A stretch of DNA of 60,136 nt from Amoebophilaceae bacterium (GTDB lineage: Bacteria; Bacteroidota; Bacteroidia; Cytophagales; Amoebophilaceae): contig JALOLY010000001.1 of assembly GCA_025455725.1 (NCBI GenBank), forward strand, positions 1 through 60,136, in the 5' to 3' direction. Within the stretch, counting starts at the first letter, position 1. Each line of letters opens with the position of its first letter. The notes below the pieces were generated by a model. That model did not search any database. It worked only from the letters and a program-made list of their open reading frames with translations, and had not been told where the DNA came from. Below are positions 1 to 60,136 of the stretch, piece after piece. A program made the position numbers and the translations under genes.

Positions 1-873
1 TACCACACCCGCTAAGCCAATCAGCATGAGCGTCAGCTGCAAAGAGGGATCGAAGACTGAGATGATGAGAAATTGATTGCGGAGTTGCTTCGCACTCTTA
101 CCCATTAGCAGACGCTGCATCTCGCAAGGATCCACCATACCCAAGGGTATAATCCAAATGAATATATGAGTGAGGTAGTATATAAACCGGGGATGATCCC
201 ATATTTGTAACTTTTCTTGGGGAACGTGTTCAAAGATGGCTTTCATGCCCCCGGCTTCCTCCACGGTAATGATAGCCAGGATAGGAATACCAATGAGAAG
301 TACTAGAAATTGAAAGCCATCGGCGGTGGTCACCGATCTAATGCCTCCACGGGCAGTGTAGAGCGCAAGGAGTATGCCTCCCAGCACGATGGTATCTTGG
401 CTGTGCCAACCCAACAAGGATTGGCCAACCTTTCCCAGCATGCTCAACTCCATGGTGGCAATGCAAAAGGTGATAAAGAGTCCCAACAAACCAGCCATGA
501 TCTTGCTTGTGGGGCCATAGAGGGTACCCACTAAGTCGCCCATGGTTAGGCACGTTGGGAACTTGGCTGCATGGGGTGCGACGAACAGGGCTCTAAATAA
601 AAAGTTGAACATGAGTATTAGTAGGGCAACGGTGGCGATCACGCCATCGGCAAAAATCACATCAGTGAAGTCAAACACATTGGTTCCTGACATATTCATG
701 GCCAAGTAGGTGAGCACCAGGGCCATTGTACCAAAAGATTTATTGGCTACAATGTATTCACGAACACTTTTGATGCCCTTACCCGACCGAAGCCCTATCA
801 CCAGTGTGATAAGAAAGAAAGCGACTACAATGCCTAAGTCCATATTATTGATATGCATGGTCATAGTGTCCAT
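1..873 (-). CDS. Sodium:solute symporter (SSF) family protein, partial (3' end runs off the window)
   Basis: Reverse-complement translation from ATG at 873: MDTMTMHINNMDLGIVVAFFLITLVIGLRSGKGIKSVREYIVANKSFGTMALVLTYLAMNMSGTNVFDF..., a multi-TM SSF-like N-terminus, open to the window edge and so absent from the ORF track. Confidence 0.8.
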   Translation of the reverse strand, partial: MDTMTMHINNMDLGIVVAFFLITLVIGLRSGKGIKSVREYIVANKSFGTMALVLTYLAMNMSGTNVFDFTDVIFADGVIATVALLILMFNFLFRALFVAPHAAKFPTCLTMGDLVGTLYGPTSKIMAGLLGLFITFCIATMELSMLGKVGQSLLGWHSQDTIVLGGILLALYTARGGIRSVTTADGFQFLVLLIGIPILAIITVEEAGGMKAIFEHVPQEKLQIWDHPRFIYYLTHIFIWIIPLGMVDPCEMQRLLMGKSAKQLRNQFLIISVFDPSLQLTLMLIGLAGVV

Positions 874-7058: not shown

Positions 7059-8441
7059 ATGGACCAGTATCTCACTCCTCAGGAAATTGTAAAAGCACTG
7101 GACAAATACATTATCGGGCAGCGAGCAGCCAAGCGCAATGTGGCTATTGCTTTGCGAAACCGTTGGAGGCGTATGCATGTCTCACCCGCCATGCAGAGCG
7201 ATATTACTCCTAATAACATTTTAATGATCGGGCCCACTGGTGTGGGCAAGACAGAGATTGCCAGGCGATTAGCTAAGCTAGCAGATGCACCTTTTGTTAA
7301 AGTAGAAGCTTCTAAGTTCACAGAAGTGGGTTACGTGGGCCGTGATGTAGAGAGTATGGTTAGGGATTTAGTGGAGCATGCTGTCAATATGGTCAAAGCG
7401 GCTAAAGAAGAAGAAGTTAAAGAAAAAGCAGCCCAGCTTGTAGAAGACTTGATTCTTGATGCACTTATTCCGCCTGTTGCTAAACCCAGCGAAACAAAGA
7501 GAGACACGACGAGCATGCCGACTTCTGAACAGGAGCCCAGTGAACTGAATCAACAAACACGGGAACGGTTTAGGTTGAAGATTAGAAGTGGAGAACTGGA
7601 TGATAGGAAAATTGAAGTGAACGTCAGCAAGCCTGGTGGTGTGGGGGTAGGTATGATTGGTGGTGGAATGATGGACGAGGCAGCTATGATGAATTTGCAG
7701 GATATGCTCAGCAGTATGCTACCCCAAAAAACGAGAAAAAAGAAGCTCACGATTGGGGAAGCCAAGAAACTTCTTTTGGCAGAAGAGGCAAACAAACTCA
7801 TTGACATGGATGTGGTCAAGGAAGAAGCGCTGAGCAAAGCCCGTAATACGGGTATCATTTTTATTGACGAAATCGATAAAATAGCAGCTAAAGCTGGCCA
7901 AGGAGGTGGCGTTGACGTGAGCCGAGAAGGCGTACAACGAGATTTATTGCCCATTGTGGAGGGGAGTGCTGTTAGTACCAAGTATGGAACGGTTCATACC
8001 GATCATATCTTGTTCATTGCTGCCGGTGCTTTTCATGTTTCCAAGCCTTCTGATCTCATTCCTGAACTACAAGGCCGCTTCCCCATTCGTGTAGAACTGG
8101 ATAACCTCACCCAAATAGACTTTGTTAGCATTTTGACGGAGCCCAAAAATGCCCTGACCGCACAGTATAGAGCACTATTTGAAGCGGAGGGCGTAGCAGT
8201 TTCTTTTGACGCCGAGGCCATAGAAGCGATAGCCACTGTGGCTCACCAGATCAATGAGACAGTGGAGAATATTGGTGCCAGAAGGTTGCATACGGTGATG
8301 AGCCACTTACTCAATGACTTTTTGTATGATGTTCCAGACAAGATCAAGCCCAAAGAGCAGATCAAGATTACAAAAGCCTTGGTAACCACTTGTTTGGCTG
8401 AGTTGGCTCAAAGGAAAGACTTGAGTGAGTATATCCTGTAA
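7059..8441 (+). CDS. hslU: ATP-dependent protease ATPase subunit HslU
   Basis: LTPQEIVKALDKYIIGQ, GPTGVGKTEIARRLA, C-terminal DLSEYIL. Confidence 0.96.
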   Translation: MDQYLTPQEIVKALDKYIIGQRAAKRNVAIALRNRWRRMHVSPAMQSDITPNNILMIGPTGVGKTEIARRLAKLADAPFVKVEASKFTEVGYVGRDVESMVRDLVEHAVNMVKAAKEEEVKEKAAQLVEDLILDALIPPVAKPSETKRDTTSMPTSEQEPSELNQQTRERFRLKIRSGELDDRKIEVNVSKPGGVGVGMIGGGMMDEAAMMNLQDMLSSMLPQKTRKKKLTIGEAKKLLLAEEANKLIDMDVVKEEALSKARNTGIIFIDEIDKIAAKAGQGGGVDVSREGVQRDLLPIVEGSAVSTKYGTVHTDHILFIAAGAFHVSKPSDLIPELQGRFPIRVELDNLTQIDFVSILTEPKNALTAQYRALFEAEGVAVSFDAEAIEAIATVAHQINETVENIGARRLHTVMSHLLNDFLYDVPDKIKPKEQIKITKALVTTCLAELAQRKDLSEYIL

Positions 8442-53769: not shown

Positions 53770-54415
53770 ACTTCAGAGAACGGTGCAAAGGAACGCTTCG
53801 CGAATCTAACATGGATATGAGGAAGAACCAATGTCCATACAATGTCAAAAGTGCTCATTCCCTCCTCGTGATGATTCAGGGGGTTAATTCTGCTTTAAAA
53901 TAGAGAGTGAGTACTACTCCTATATAAATGGGTTACAGGTTGATCATAAGTACCTAAAACATAAGTAAAACGCTCAGGGAAGAAGTACTCGTTGCCCACA
54001 TTGCGGTAGTAGATGTTGTTAATTTTGAGGTTGCCCTAGTACTATTCATTCTCAGTCTGTCGAAAAGGGAGGGATGCATTAGGTACTTCTGAGAGAGTCT
54101 CAACGTGGGGGCACTCAAAAATAATAATCTGTGCAATCGTTCAAGACGGTTATGTGCAGTGCAGATTTGATAGCCCCATACCGAGGTGTAAATGTTGGGG
54201 TGATTGTTAGGCTAATAATGTTTTAGTCCGAGCTACTGCAAGTGCACGGACTCCTGCAAAAAGAATGGCGTTTCTGCCAAAAAACTACTAACTTCATTGC
54301 CTCTCGCAGGAGATGCAGGGGGGTGCTTTAATCGTTTGAAGGAAGTATTATTCAAAAAGATCTCCAGCGTGATTTGAAATACGCATTGTTCTTAACGCTA
54401 AAAGATGCATTGACC

Positions 54416-56188
54416 ATGAAAAATCTCTCTAGATTTGGGGCGCTCGCTTTGATCATACTAGCTGTTTGGCTTTACGCGCGTTCTGTGCGTGTGCCTCAAG
54501 GTCAAAACGAAAAGGTACTAGTAACAACTAGCGAGGTGCAAATCAAGGGCTTCGATCCAGCCCAAATAGATGACTTGTACAGCTCTCGTGAAGCGACCAG
54601 AGTGTATGAGGGACTGTTGACATACCACTATCTCAAGCGACCGCACGAGCTTGTGCCTAACCTAGCGGTTTCTTTGCCCACTGTTTCCGAGGATGGCTGT
54701 GTGTACACTTTTACGCTTCGGGAGGGCGTCAAGTTTCATGACAATGCGTGTTTCCCTTCAGGGCAAGGAAGGGAGCTTACGGCCGAAGATTTTGTCTACG
54801 CGATCAAAAGGGTGGCAGATCCTAAAGTGCGTTCTTCTTGGTTCAGCGTGGTGGCAGGGAAAATTAAAGGGCTAGACGCATGGCGTGATAAGTATACCGA
54901 CACTGCCCACACAGACTACTCCGAGGCAGTGGAAGGTCTGAAAGCGCTGGATAGGTACAGTTTACAATTTACCCTGACACAGCCCTGGCCCCAGTTTTTG
55001 TACATTTTGGCCATGAACTTTTGCTGTGTAGTGCCCCAAGAGGCCGTACAGTACTACGGTGAAGAATTCCTCAATCACCCTGTCGGTACAGGGCCGTTTA
55101 CCATGGAAGCGTTCAATCCCCAACTGAACAAGCTGGTGTACCATAAGAACCCTACTTTCAGGGACAAGCGCTTCCCCAGTGAAGCTTCAGAGGGGTATCA
55201 GCATCTTCTTGCTGATGCTGGCAAGAAACTACCTTTGGTCGACAAGATCATCACCCACATTCTTCCGGAAGAGCAGCCCAGGTGGCTTAAGTTTCAGCAA
55301 GGCGCCATAGATATAGCCGATATCGCCTCTGACAACATCGCTTTAGAAGTTATTAAAGGGAATACTATAGTACCCCAACTGCAGGAAAAAGGGGTTCAGC
55401 TGTGTCTGGAGCAAGCGCCAATGACTAGTTTTTTTGCTATTAACAATGATTGTGAGCCATTCAAAAACAATGCGAAACTACGCCAGGCTTTGTCTTTGGC
55501 GTTCGATGGACAGCGATATAATGAGCTTTTTTTTAATGGCAGTGCCGTGTCGGCGCAATCCATCATACCGCCTGGACTTTCGGGATACCAAAGAGACTAT
55601 GTCAACCCGTACAAACAATATGACCTGGCCAAAGCCAAGCAGCAGCTGGCAGCAGCTGGCTATCCTGAAGGGAAGGGGTTGCCAGTGATTACCTTGGATG
55701 TTAGGGCTAACACTAAACAAAAACAAGAGGGTGAGTTCTTTAAGAAATGCATGGAGGGCATTGGTGTCAAAATCAGGGTCGTGCCCAACATATTCCCTGA
55801 GCTGTTAAAGAAAATGAGCCAAAGGAAGACTATGATGCACGCGATCTCATGGGGGGCTGACTATCCAGATGCAGAAAACTTTTTGCAGCTGTTCTACAAG
55901 TCTCACCAAAGTATGAGCGCCGGGCTAAATTTTAACGATGCCGCTTACAATGCGTTGTACGAACGAGCGACAAACATGCAGCCCTCCGAGGAACGCACCA
56001 TTCTGTACGAACAGCTGAACCGTATGCTTGCGGAATGTGCCCCCGTAGTTTACTCAATACATCAAGCCCATCCTGTGCTCTATCATGGCTGGGTAAAAAA
56101 CTACCTCTGGTCTAATTATTGTGGCGGTCTAGAGCAATATATTAATATCGATCTGGATCAAAAGAAAGCTTTGCAAGCCAGGTTCTGA
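54416..56188 (+). CDS. oppA: Peptide/oligopeptide ABC transporter substrate-binding protein (ORF extends 5' to a TTG at 54374)
   Basis: EVQIKGFDPAQIDDLYSSREATRVYEGLLTY, SBP_bac_5 pattern, first gene of the opp cluster. Confidence 0.9.
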   Translation: MKNLSRFGALALIILAVWLYARSVRVPQGQNEKVLVTTSEVQIKGFDPAQIDDLYSSREATRVYEGLLTYHYLKRPHELVPNLAVSLPTVSEDGCVYTFTLREGVKFHDNACFPSGQGRELTAEDFVYAIKRVADPKVRSSWFSVVAGKIKGLDAWRDKYTDTAHTDYSEAVEGLKALDRYSLQFTLTQPWPQFLYILAMNFCCVVPQEAVQYYGEEFLNHPVGTGPFTMEAFNPQLNKLVYHKNPTFRDKRFPSEASEGYQHLLADAGKKLPLVDKIITHILPEEQPRWLKFQQGAIDIADIASDNIALEVIKGNTIVPQLQEKGVQLCLEQAPMTSFFAINNDCEPFKNNAKLRQALSLAFDGQRYNELFFNGSAVSAQSIIPPGLSGYQRDYVNPYKQYDLAKAKQQLAAAGYPEGKGLPVITLDVRANTKQKQEGEFFKKCMEGIGVKIRVVPNIFPELLKKMSQRKTMMHAISWGADYPDAENFLQLFYKSHQSMSAGLNFNDAAYNALYERATNMQPSEERTILYEQLNRMLAECAPVVYSIHQAHPVLYHGWVKNYLWSNYCGGLEQYINIDLDQKKALQARF

Positions 56189-56204
56189 GAGTACATAGGA
56201 TCTC

Positions 56205-57146
56205 ATGAGTATTTACCATTACACTGTTAGGAGGCTTTTCTATGCTATTCCGATTTTGATCGGGGTGACGCTAGTCATTTTTATCTTATTCAATGTGGTA
56301 GCGGGTGATCCAACCCTGACTTTACTTGGAAGGTATGCGACGCTTCAGCAAATGGCTGAACTGAGACATGAGCTAGGGCTAGATAAGCCTTTGTTGTTAC
56401 AATACCTCGACACACTCAGGTCAACTTTTACATTACAATTTGGTCGTTCCTGGTCCACCAATCAGCCGATCTCACAAATGATTCAAGTAGGGGCCTACGC
56501 CTCGCTCACCCTGTCTGTTCCTGCCTTTGTACTCGCCAGTTTGCTCTCTATTGCTATGGCGTTATTGGCTGCTTTTTTTCGTGACACATTGCTAGACCGA
56601 AGTCTAGTTGTCATTAGCGTTATTATGATGAGTGTTTCGGTACTCGCTTACATCCTCTTTGGGCAGTGGGTATTTGCGTACAAGTTGGGCTGGTTTGAGA
56701 TAGCAGGGTATGAGTATGGCTTTCCGTACTTTATTCCCTATATCATTCTGCCAGCCATGATCTGGATTGTACTCAGCATAGGCCCTGATGTGCGTTTTTA
56801 TAGAACAATCATATTAGACGAGGTGCACCAAGATTATGTCCGCACTGCCCGTGCCAAAGGGCTTGCAAACCGGACGATATTGTTTAAGCACGTACTCAAG
56901 AATGCCATGATCCCCATCATCACCAATCTAGTCACTCAGATTCCTTCACTGATATTGGGCGCTTTGTTGATTGAGAGTTTCTTTGGTATCCCTGGCTTGG
57001 GTAATATCACCCTGCAAGCCATCAACAATTCTGATTTTCCCGTTATCAAGGCCATGACTATTCTGTCTTCCATGTTGTACATCATTTTTAATGTCATCAC
57101 CGATATACTCTACACCTTGGTAGATCCACGTATCAAACTCAATTAG
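56205..57146 (+). CDS. oppB: Oligopeptide ABC transporter permease
   Basis: YTVRRLFYAIPILIGVTLVIFILFNVVAGDP; EVHQDYVRTARAKGL EAA-like loop. Confidence 0.93.
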   Translation: MSIYHYTVRRLFYAIPILIGVTLVIFILFNVVAGDPTLTLLGRYATLQQMAELRHELGLDKPLLLQYLDTLRSTFTLQFGRSWSTNQPISQMIQVGAYASLTLSVPAFVLASLLSIAMALLAAFFRDTLLDRSLVVISVIMMSVSVLAYILFGQWVFAYKLGWFEIAGYEYGFPYFIPYIILPAMIWIVLSIGPDVRFYRTIILDEVHQDYVRTARAKGLANRTILFKHVLKNAMIPIITNLVTQIPSLILGALLIESFFGIPGLGNITLQAINNSDFPVIKAMTILSSMLYIIFNVITDILYTLVDPRIKLN

Positions 57147-57153
57147 CTGCCCT

Positions 57154-58017
57154 ATGATAGTCCACCCTGCTCCCAGGTCGCTCTGGAGAGAGACTCTACG
57201 CCAGCTGTTTCAAAAAAAGCTCACCATAGTAGCCTTGGTGGTTATTTTCACGTACACATCAGTGGCGTTATTAGCCCATTGGGGGCTTATTGCGGGCAGT
57301 TGGAACACCGAGGTGGGTAGCTCTTACGCTGCTCCTAGTATGCAACACTGGTTGGGCACGGACATTTTTGGTAGAAGTGTGCTGGCAAAAGTTATCAAAG
57401 GCACAGAAGTCGCCATGAGCGTTGGTTTTTCTGTCGGCCTCATTTCGATCACCATTGGCGTGGCGTTGGGTGCTTTGGCTGGTTACCTTGGGGGTATTGT
57501 AGACGAATGTATTGTATGGTTTTATACCACAGTAGCTTCTATTCCCAGCATCATGCTACTCATTGCCCTAACTTTTATCCTGGGAAAGGGTATTCTTGCT
57601 GTGTACATTGCTCTGGGCATGACTCACTGGGTGGATTTGTGTCGGTTGATCAGGGGTGAGGTTAAGCGCCACAGAGACCGGGAATATGTACAAGCGGCTG
57701 CTGCCCTAGGGGCAAGCCATCTGCGTAGACTCTGTAGGCATATTCTTCCGAATGTTTTACACATTGTAGTTGTTTGCTTTTCACTTATCTTTCAGTTCGC
57801 GATTAAATCAGAAGTTATCCTCTCTTATCTTGGCTTGGGCATGCAAGATAGCCCTAGCTGGGGTGTGATGATTGATGATGCTAGAGTAGAACTTACCCGA
57901 GGTATATGGTGGCAATTGACTTTTGCTACGTTAGCCATGTTTTTGATTGTGTTGGCCTTTAACATCCTGAGTGATGCCCTCAGAGATGCTTTAGATCCCA
58001 AACTAAAGGGTAAATAG
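57154..58017 (+). CDS. oppC: Oligopeptide ABC transporter permease
   Basis: HWLGTDIFGRSVLAKVIKGTEVAMSVGF; REYVQAAAALGAS; LSYLGLGMQDSPSWGVMI. Confidence 0.94.
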   Translation: MIVHPAPRSLWRETLRQLFQKKLTIVALVVIFTYTSVALLAHWGLIAGSWNTEVGSSYAAPSMQHWLGTDIFGRSVLAKVIKGTEVAMSVGFSVGLISITIGVALGALAGYLGGIVDECIVWFYTTVASIPSIMLLIALTFILGKGILAVYIALGMTHWVDLCRLIRGEVKRHRDREYVQAAAALGASHLRRLCRHILPNVLHIVVVCFSLIFQFAIKSEVILSYLGLGMQDSPSWGVMIDDARVELTRGIWWQLTFATLAMFLIVLAFNILSDALRDALDPKLKGK

Positions 58018-58019
58018 CC

Positions 58020-59027
58020 ATGGCCAAAAAAATTCTGGAAGTAAAGCAACTAGTGACCAGTTTTAGGACTGCACAAGGCACTGTCAAAGCAGTAGATGGG
58101 GTTTCCTTCGATGTGTATCAAGGGAAGACGTTAGGCATTGTTGGCGAATCTGGTTCTGGCAAGTCCACAATCGCCCTTTCCATCATGAGGCTTATTGAGT
58201 CTTCTGTAGGTTGGATAGACCAAGGCTCTGTTTTGTTGCAAGGGCAAGATATTTTGAAGTTGCCGAGGCGTGCCATGCAGCATGTACGTGGTAATCAGAT
58301 CTCGATGATCTTTCAAGAGCCCATGACATCGCTGAATCCTGTCTTTACTGTTGGGAACCAAATTCAGGAAGCTTTACTGCTACACCAAGACATTGCTCCT
58401 AAAGATGCCCAGAGCCGGTGTATAGAGCTACTAGCTTTGGTAGGCATGCCCACACCTGAGAAATGTATGTATGAATACCCCCACCAGCTTTCTGGTGGCA
58501 TGCGGCAGCGTGTCATGATTGCGATGGCACTGGCTTGCCAGCCTGCTGTGCTGATTGCAGACGAACCCACCACAGCCTTAGATGTGACTACGCAGGCACA
58601 GATTCTTGATTTGATGCGTAAGTTGCAGGAGGAAATAGCCATGGGTATTATATTGATCACGCACGACTTGGGCGTGGTGGCAGAGATGTGTGATGAGGTG
58701 GCAGTGATGTACTGTGGCAGAATTGTCGAGCAGGCCGATGTAAGAATGCTCTTCAGTCATCCTGCACATCCCTACACCCAGGGGTTGCTGAACTCAATTC
58801 CGTCTTTGGAGACCTTGCCAGCGGGACAAGAGCAAAGACTACGCACGATTGAGGGCGTCGTTCCCTCGCTCTTGCAGCTACCATCAGGATGTAATTTTCA
58901 AGACCGCTGTTCACGGGTACATGAGGCTTGCAGAGGCTTACATGGGGATCCTTGTCTTCAAGAAGTAGCCCCGCAACATCTGGCTGCTTGTTTTTATCCC
59001 TTGCATGGCCAATCGCAACTATCTTGA
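58020..59027 (+). CDS. oppD: Oligopeptide ABC transporter ATP-binding protein
   Basis: GESGSGKSTIALSIMRL, LSGGMRQRVMIAMALACQPAVLIADEPTTALDVTTQAQIL. Confidence 0.95.
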   Translation: MAKKILEVKQLVTSFRTAQGTVKAVDGVSFDVYQGKTLGIVGESGSGKSTIALSIMRLIESSVGWIDQGSVLLQGQDILKLPRRAMQHVRGNQISMIFQEPMTSLNPVFTVGNQIQEALLLHQDIAPKDAQSRCIELLALVGMPTPEKCMYEYPHQLSGGMRQRVMIAMALACQPAVLIADEPTTALDVTTQAQILDLMRKLQEEIAMGIILITHDLGVVAEMCDEVAVMYCGRIVEQADVRMLFSHPAHPYTQGLLNSIPSLETLPAGQEQRLRTIEGVVPSLLQLPSGCNFQDRCSRVHEACRGLHGDPCLQEVAPQHLAACFYPLHGQSQLS

Positions 59028-59028
59028 C

Positions 59029-59115
59029 ATGGAATCTAACCCACCGCTTTTAGAAGTGCGTAATCTCTCCAAGCGTGGTTCCACGCGTGAGAGAGAAACC
59101 TTTGTGAATTACTAA
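59029..59115 (+). pseudogene. oppF: 5' fragment of a second ABC ATPase (oppF-like), truncated at a junction
   Basis: MESNPPLLEVRNLSK then RGSTRERETFVNY*; ABC similarity stops after LLEVRNLSK. Confidence 0.65.
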
Positions 59116-59180
59116 GTCCTTTAGCAGTTTAGATTGTCGGAGTCGCTGAATACCAGCCACCGCTTTTTTGAGAAATAACT

Positions 59181-60136
59181 ATGGAAGAAAGCCGTCGACC
59201 CGAAAAGATTAATGTGCGTGTACTTCGTCAGGACGGACCGGGCCAACCCAGCTATTGGGAAAGGCACCAAGTTCCCTACGAAGAAAACATGAATATTATC
59301 AGCGTCCTTCAAAGGATCGCTGCTCAAGCCACCTCGGTCGAAGGGAAACCTGTCGCGCCGGTAGCTTGGGATTGCGGTTGCCTTGAAGAGGTCTGCGGTT
59401 CATGCACTATGGTGATCAATGGTCAGGTGCGTCAGAGTTGTTCTGCGTTGGTTGATCGGCTGATGGACGCTGGACATCATGAGATCGAGCTTCGACCGAT
59501 GTCGAAATTCCCAGTTGTTCGAGATTTGATGGTTGACCGTAGTCGTTTGTTCCGCGGTTTGCAACGTGTCAGCGCTTGGGTTCCGGCTGATACTTACGGT
59601 GATTTGGGTCCTGGCCCCAGGATGAACCGCAAGGATCAAGAGCAAGCGTATCCGTTGAGCGAGTGCATGAGCTGCGGTTGTTGCTTGGAAGCCTGTCCGC
59701 AATATCAAAAGGTGGAGGTCTACCGTCGCCCCGGCGAAACCGACGAGCAGTTCGATCAGCGCAAGAAGGATGCATACGATCAAAACTTCATTGGTGCGGC
59801 TGTGATCAGTCAAGCTGTTCTCTTCAACTCGCATCCAGTTGGGAAATCGATGGAAGACGAGCGTATGGAAGCTCTCAAAGGTCCTGGTGGGGTGCATGCA
59901 TGCGGTAACTCGCAAAATTGCGTCGCGGTTTGTCCGAAGAGCATTCCTTTGACCACCTCCATCGGTCGAGCTGGGCGAGCTGTCACAATGCACACGCTGA
60001 AGAAGTTTTTCGACGAAAAGCAGAAACTCGAAGTCAAGGTTGGTGTGTTGGACAAAAAGGTCTTCTCCGCCCAGGAGCTGGCCACCATCGCCGATCTGCC
60101 GCCGTTCGATACGCTGCGCGCCCAGTTCCTCAGCCT
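59181..60136 (+). CDS. sdhB: Succinate dehydrogenase/fumarate reductase iron-sulfur subunit, partial (runs off the window)
   Basis: MEESRRPEKINVRVLRQDGPGQPSYWERHQVPY...VAWDCGCLEEVCGSCTMVINGQVRQSCSALVDRL...PLSECMSCGCCLEACPQY...HACGNSQNCVAVCPKSIPL; open to the window end, so absent from the ORF track. Confidence 0.93.
   Translation, partial: MEESRRPEKINVRVLRQDGPGQPSYWERHQVPYEENMNIISVLQRIAAQATSVEGKPVAPVAWDCGCLEEVCGSCTMVINGQVRQSCSALVDRLMDAGHHEIELRPMSKFPVVRDLMVDRSRLFRGLQRVSAWVPADTYGDLGPGPRMNRKDQEQAYPLSECMSCGCCLEACPQYQKVEVYRRPGETDEQFDQRKKDAYDQNFIGAAVISQAVLFNSHPVGKSMEDERMEALKGPGGVHACGNSQNCVAVCPKSIPLTTSIGRAGRAVTMHTLKKFFDEKQKLEVKVGVLDKKVFSAQELATIADLPPFDTLRAQFLS

Follow-up and report, generated by a model that had tools for sequence, protein, structure and literature searches.

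Wrong extension of contig ends has been discussed as a cause of chimeric contigs (PMC7953547), and the number of chimeras is strongly affected by the k-mer or overlap size (PMC6843070). The locus described here shares with such chimeric ends of short-read metagenome contigs the confinement of the foreign DNA to the end, sources from different phyla, switches between the sources on some 20 bases of shared or homologous sequence, and relatives that give no support for the foreign sequence. There is no difference in kind; three switches per kilobase are merely untidy. The analysed window is the whole contig C41 with 60136 bases, from an assembly of 58 contigs and 896 kb (0.9 Mb MAG) of a member of the Amoebophilaceae, which are intracellular symbionts within the Bacteroidota. 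The mosaic fills the final kilobase of this contig up to its last base, 60136. With a probability of roughly 97%, we consider the right contig end to be an assembly artefact resulting from a small-k mis-join. Accordingly ordered, the contig end comprises the following features:

54374-59027, forward strand: native oppA, oppB, oppC and oppD (NCBIfam oligopeptide transporter subunits), colinear with the relative G001 at 78% DNA identity.
59029-59075, forward strand: native 5' stub of oppF (MESNPPLLEVRNLSKR), resembling the start of OppF in G001; the alignment to G001 stops at 59075.
59056-59075, forward strand: junction 1, a 20-base word (GTGCGTAATCTCTCCAAGCG), exact in the planctomycete locus L003 and fitting both oppF and the sdhA end and spacer of KLAP7.
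59056-59285, forward strand: piece 1, running from the last bases and stop codon of sdhA through the sdhA-sdhB spacer to codon 35 of sdhB, matching L003.
59263-59284, forward strand: junction 2, a 22-base identical run adjoining the change point at 59285 (change-point analysis).
59286-60014, forward strand: piece 2, the rest of sdhB, from a putative second planctomycete, sister to KLAP7 (identity to KLAP7 of 75% for DNA and 84.5% for protein; tree).
59997-60014, forward strand: junction 3, 18 bases (CTGAAGAAGTTTTTCGAC) with overlapping homology to SdhB (alignment to 60014) and L10 (alignment from 59997).
60015-60136, forward strand: piece 3, an internal fragment of rplJ (ribosomal protein L10), cut by the contig end (NF000955, PDB and L10 alignments, GC3).

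Two known types of SdhB are relevant for comparison. With the SdhB of Planctomycetota (NF006391 / PRK08640 type), the window frame shares the DCGCLEEVCGSC motif, the Fer2_3 and 4Fe-4S domains, both of which were found in its product, and an sdhA end just upstream, whereas it differs in being a composite of two lineages, which lacks an own stop codon and runs into L10. The profile score of 378 bits lies above the cut-off of 244, and among the 80 best related loci, 79 carried the motif DCGCLEEVCG[SA]C. With Bacteroidota SdhB from within the same order and family, on the other hand, only the broad protein family is shared, while the context of the cysteine motif differs and the sequences are widely separated in the tree. 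Among the Bacteroidota, loci L201 and L202 showed HDCREGICG.C..YINGRPHGP, and the dhsB of G008 is of this Bacteroidota type (REGICGACSMYINGRPHGP). The original prediction had named a Bacteroidota signature, which was recovered in G008 and G015 but not in two further genomes of the order; its loci L199 and L200 carry another SdhB type with NCKAGKCGSCS.EINGKPRL. Its assignment of the window protein to a type found in Firmicutes, Planctomycetes and Acidobacteria could be narrowed to the Planctomycetota (Pirellulaceae and kin).

On the native side, the blastn alignment with the closest relative, G001, was colinear from 54409 to exactly base 59075. At the equivalent place, G001 comprises MEPNPPLLEVRNLSKRFPIRGG followed by a full, intact OppF. 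In the window, the oppF start at 59029 loses the ABC homology after about 16 codons, close to the 15 codons noted before, and OppA-B-C-D are complete from 54374 to 59027 according to the NCBIfam matches, as had been proposed for an operon intact through oppD. The remaining part of oppF was searched across the contigs of the assembly and was not found. The counterpart of the region after oppF in G001 lies on C47:1574-3732; since C47:1-1573 holds other genes, the oppF gap stays unclosed by this contig. As a separate observation, C47:32-1099 (forward strand) carries a frame of 356 codons with GIPNVGNTCYVNAVLQ and HGHYTAYVKNKAGKWVEYND, which by eye resembles a ubiquitin-specific protease (C19), presumably of a kind known in Amoebophilus. 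It lies directly upstream of a tRNA-like stretch, the right side of which is colinear with the post-oppF region of G001.

The two sources, symbiont and planctomycete, overlap in the word of junction 1. Piece 1 showed an identity of 97.4% over 229-230 bases to the planctomycete MAG KLAP7 (locus L003), and the stop codon of sdhA is located at 59061-59063. Compared to oppF of G001, the 20-base word comprises two base differences, both of them synonymous, and it reads equally as natural oppF coding sequence. Piece 1 can thus be attributed, at the level of sequence identity, to a KLAP7-like planctomycete. A change in the character of the DNA from about 59075 had been recognized before and was borne out, while the foreign start at 59056/59076 had been missed.

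The sharp boundary and the low divergence of the first 230 bases from a known planctomycete would also fit a real recent insertion, in which planctomycete DNA entered the symbiont chromosome by horizontal transfer and broke oppF, an option raised by the original prediction. However, the inserted piece would be a mosaic of two planctomycete lineages followed by the L10 of another organism. Its left edge falls among the final sdhA codons and its right edge coincides with the contig end, no boundary formed by a mobile element or a repeat was seen, and sdhB would lack both its partner subunits and a stop codon. Instead of one coherent or mobile-element-bounded segment within native DNA, several sources and no native right flank were found. 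Relatives do not share the insertion either, as oppF is intact in G001 and no dhsB was found in the same-genus genomes G001, G002 and G003. A real insertion is therefore regarded as extremely improbable, and we give hardly any credence to the variant in which the tail is the start of a longer planctomycete island in oppF extending beyond the contig end.

Within sdhB, the identity to KLAP7 drops at 59285 from 97.4% to 74.9%, and the log-likelihood improves by 37 units when one change point is introduced. After this position, 134 of the 182 mismatches to KLAP7 are located at third codon positions. In an SdhB tree of 54 rows, piece 2 was placed nearest to KLAP7 among the planctomycete rows and apart from the four Bacteroidota rows, so that the window SdhB falls outside the Bacteroidota, as would be expected for a foreign origin. 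A DNA search of 395 Planctomycetota genomes for a closer donor of piece 2 revealed none better than KLAP7 (75%). A non-coding spacer with 97% identity beside coding DNA with 75% is not expected from descent in a single lineage, and the placement in the tree points to a second planctomycete as the source of piece 2.

Since piece 2 is sister to KLAP7 and homologous recombination occurs between sister species, pieces 1 and 2 might also represent one planctomycete genome with an sdhA-sdhB spacer swapped from a KLAP7 relative, in which case only junctions 1 and 3 would be mis-joins. Taken alone, junction 2 could be such a natural recombination between sister planctomycetes. The change point lies, however, right after a 22-base identical run, as for the other two junctions, and within the same kilobase. 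This explanation is considered unlikely, and it leaves the tail foreign to the symbiont.

The third break concerns the end of the sdhB frame. While the planctomycete SdhB relatives terminate with KKxFDR and a stop codon, the window frame does not reach such an end and continues with KKFFDEKQKLEVKVGVLDKKVFSAQELATIADLPPFDTLRAQFLS up to the contig end. For piece 3, NCBIfam NF000955 was matched with an E-value of 1.4e-6, and nine of nine PDB matches were L10, each of them individually weak (best E-value of 0.007). Compared to L10-like proteins from four Planctomycetota genomes, the identity amounted to 38-44%. Pfam, scanned with the L10 piece by itself, gave no match, the fragment being short and below its reach. 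Altogether, the profile and alignment matches identify piece 3 as a fragment of ribosomal protein L10, which would originate from a third bacterium and is fused in frame to sdhB. The complete L10 of the genome itself is located on contig C12. The earlier description of the tail from about 59075 as a single sdhB body holds for the presence of sdhB, but had overlooked both the break at about 59285 and L10 from about 60000.

Two other assignments of this part were considered and rejected. A C-terminal extension of SdhB was discarded, since the tblastn hits up to residue 309 read through the stop codons of the relatives and do not represent SdhB. An origin of the L10 piece from KLAP7 or related planctomycetes is contradicted by an identity of only 34% over 29 residues to the L10 of KLAP7 and by the lack of a DNA match. 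Among 395 Planctomycetota genomes, the best identity to the L10 piece was only 44%.

The composition of the contig end changes in parallel. The GC content increases from 0.44-0.49 in the opp genes to 0.53 in the second segment of sdhB and reaches 0.58 over the final 120 bases, while GC3 rises from 0.48-0.53 via 0.56 to 0.80 in the L10 piece. This agrees with the previous impression by eye that the sdhB body is richer in G/C, especially at third positions near the end. Under a Markov model derived from the genome, the 500-base windows that begin at 59001, 59251 and 59501 fell short of the genome mean by 3.1-3.6 SD. Further contig ends of unusual composition were not counted as added proof, as most of them are native repeats or rRNA. 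Compositional outliers without a second copy in the genome were observed at the ends C18:~7425-7687 (L132) and C29:1-~680 (L143); at the end of C18, a frame for a membrane protein (YIYRIRLL...SVVGGG) gives way to unrelated sequence. Both ends could be additional foreign tails, perhaps of eukaryotic origin as judged by eye.

The last ~1.06 kb of the contig are, judged by their sequence, foreign to the symbiont, and the open frame 59181-60136 is not regarded as one of its genes. The foreign sequence is located at the contig terminus, and four sources are distinguished by homology, namely the symbiont, a KLAP7-like planctomycete, a second planctomycete and the L10 of another bacterium. The sources switch at 59056-59075, at about 59285 and at 59997-60014. 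The word at junction 1 is exact, while those at junctions 2 and 3 are deduced from homology and not read from the DNA of the donors. Mis-assembly is favoured because three foreign pieces occur within 1.06 kb at a contig terminus, the junctions across phyla lie on about 18-20 shared bases, the fusion of sdhB with rplJ makes no biological sense, and dhsB is absent elsewhere: within the genome, matches to the dhsB family were restricted to the tail, and 10 of the 11 other family members lack dhsB, with G008 as the only exception. The mis-assembly of different organisms that had been suspected from the sequence is thereby supported.

Regarding the mechanism, the real symbiont sequence would stop inside oppF at about 59075. 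During the extension of the contig end, an assembler working with a de Bruijn graph at small k (~21) could then have linked unrelated reads of other bacteria from the same sample via short common words, passing from the KLAP7-like planctomycete to the second planctomycete within conserved sdhB sequence, from there to the rplJ of the third organism and finally to the contig end. The assembler mechanism, its k and the origin of all sources from a single sample are what we infer from this arrangement. Between the genome and 0.72 Mb of planctomycete loci, 7 positions with exact common 20-mers were found, compared to 1.1 expected for random sequence. Since 0.72 Mb already contain 7 such positions, a metagenome graph at k ~21 would hold many false edges, and a low-k extension of contig ends would follow some of them.

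Instead of the assembler, laboratory steps such as library ligation or amplification, or template switching primed by short words in common, might have produced chimeric molecules with similar junctions. This origin would require three switches between at least three sources within 1.06 kb, and the molecules carrying them would have to be abundant enough to enter the assembly; the terminal location is better accounted for by the assembler. It is hence judged very improbable.

As an ordinary assembly artefact, the contig tail is not a real feature, and its significance is one of quality control only: 59076-60136 should be trimmed from the MAG, and the symbiont should not be assigned an SdhB or a second L10. 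If left untrimmed, the in-frame fusion could be taken up by databases as a novel SdhB-L10 architecture or be mistaken for a gene transfer from a planctomycete to a symbiont. The estimated contamination of the assembly is 0, so that a tail of this kind escapes the estimates of completeness and contamination.

Further observations concern the contig ends in general. Window positions 1-400 match the left end of contig C58 with 91% identity across all 400 bases, which indicates that the contig also begins in a repeated element. At the ends of C14, C25, C43 and C45, a multi-copy predicted protein family with repeats such as CPFWPGK...TRDVLPGSR was observed, which probably causes assembly breaks. 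Two pairs of contig ends (C13 right with C11 left; C21 right with C37 left) overlap exactly, by 99 and 54 bases, giving a hint of the assembler settings and of joinable contigs. Because two contig ends overlap exactly over 99 bases, the final k would have been large, which suggests that the small-k joins arose in the extension step.
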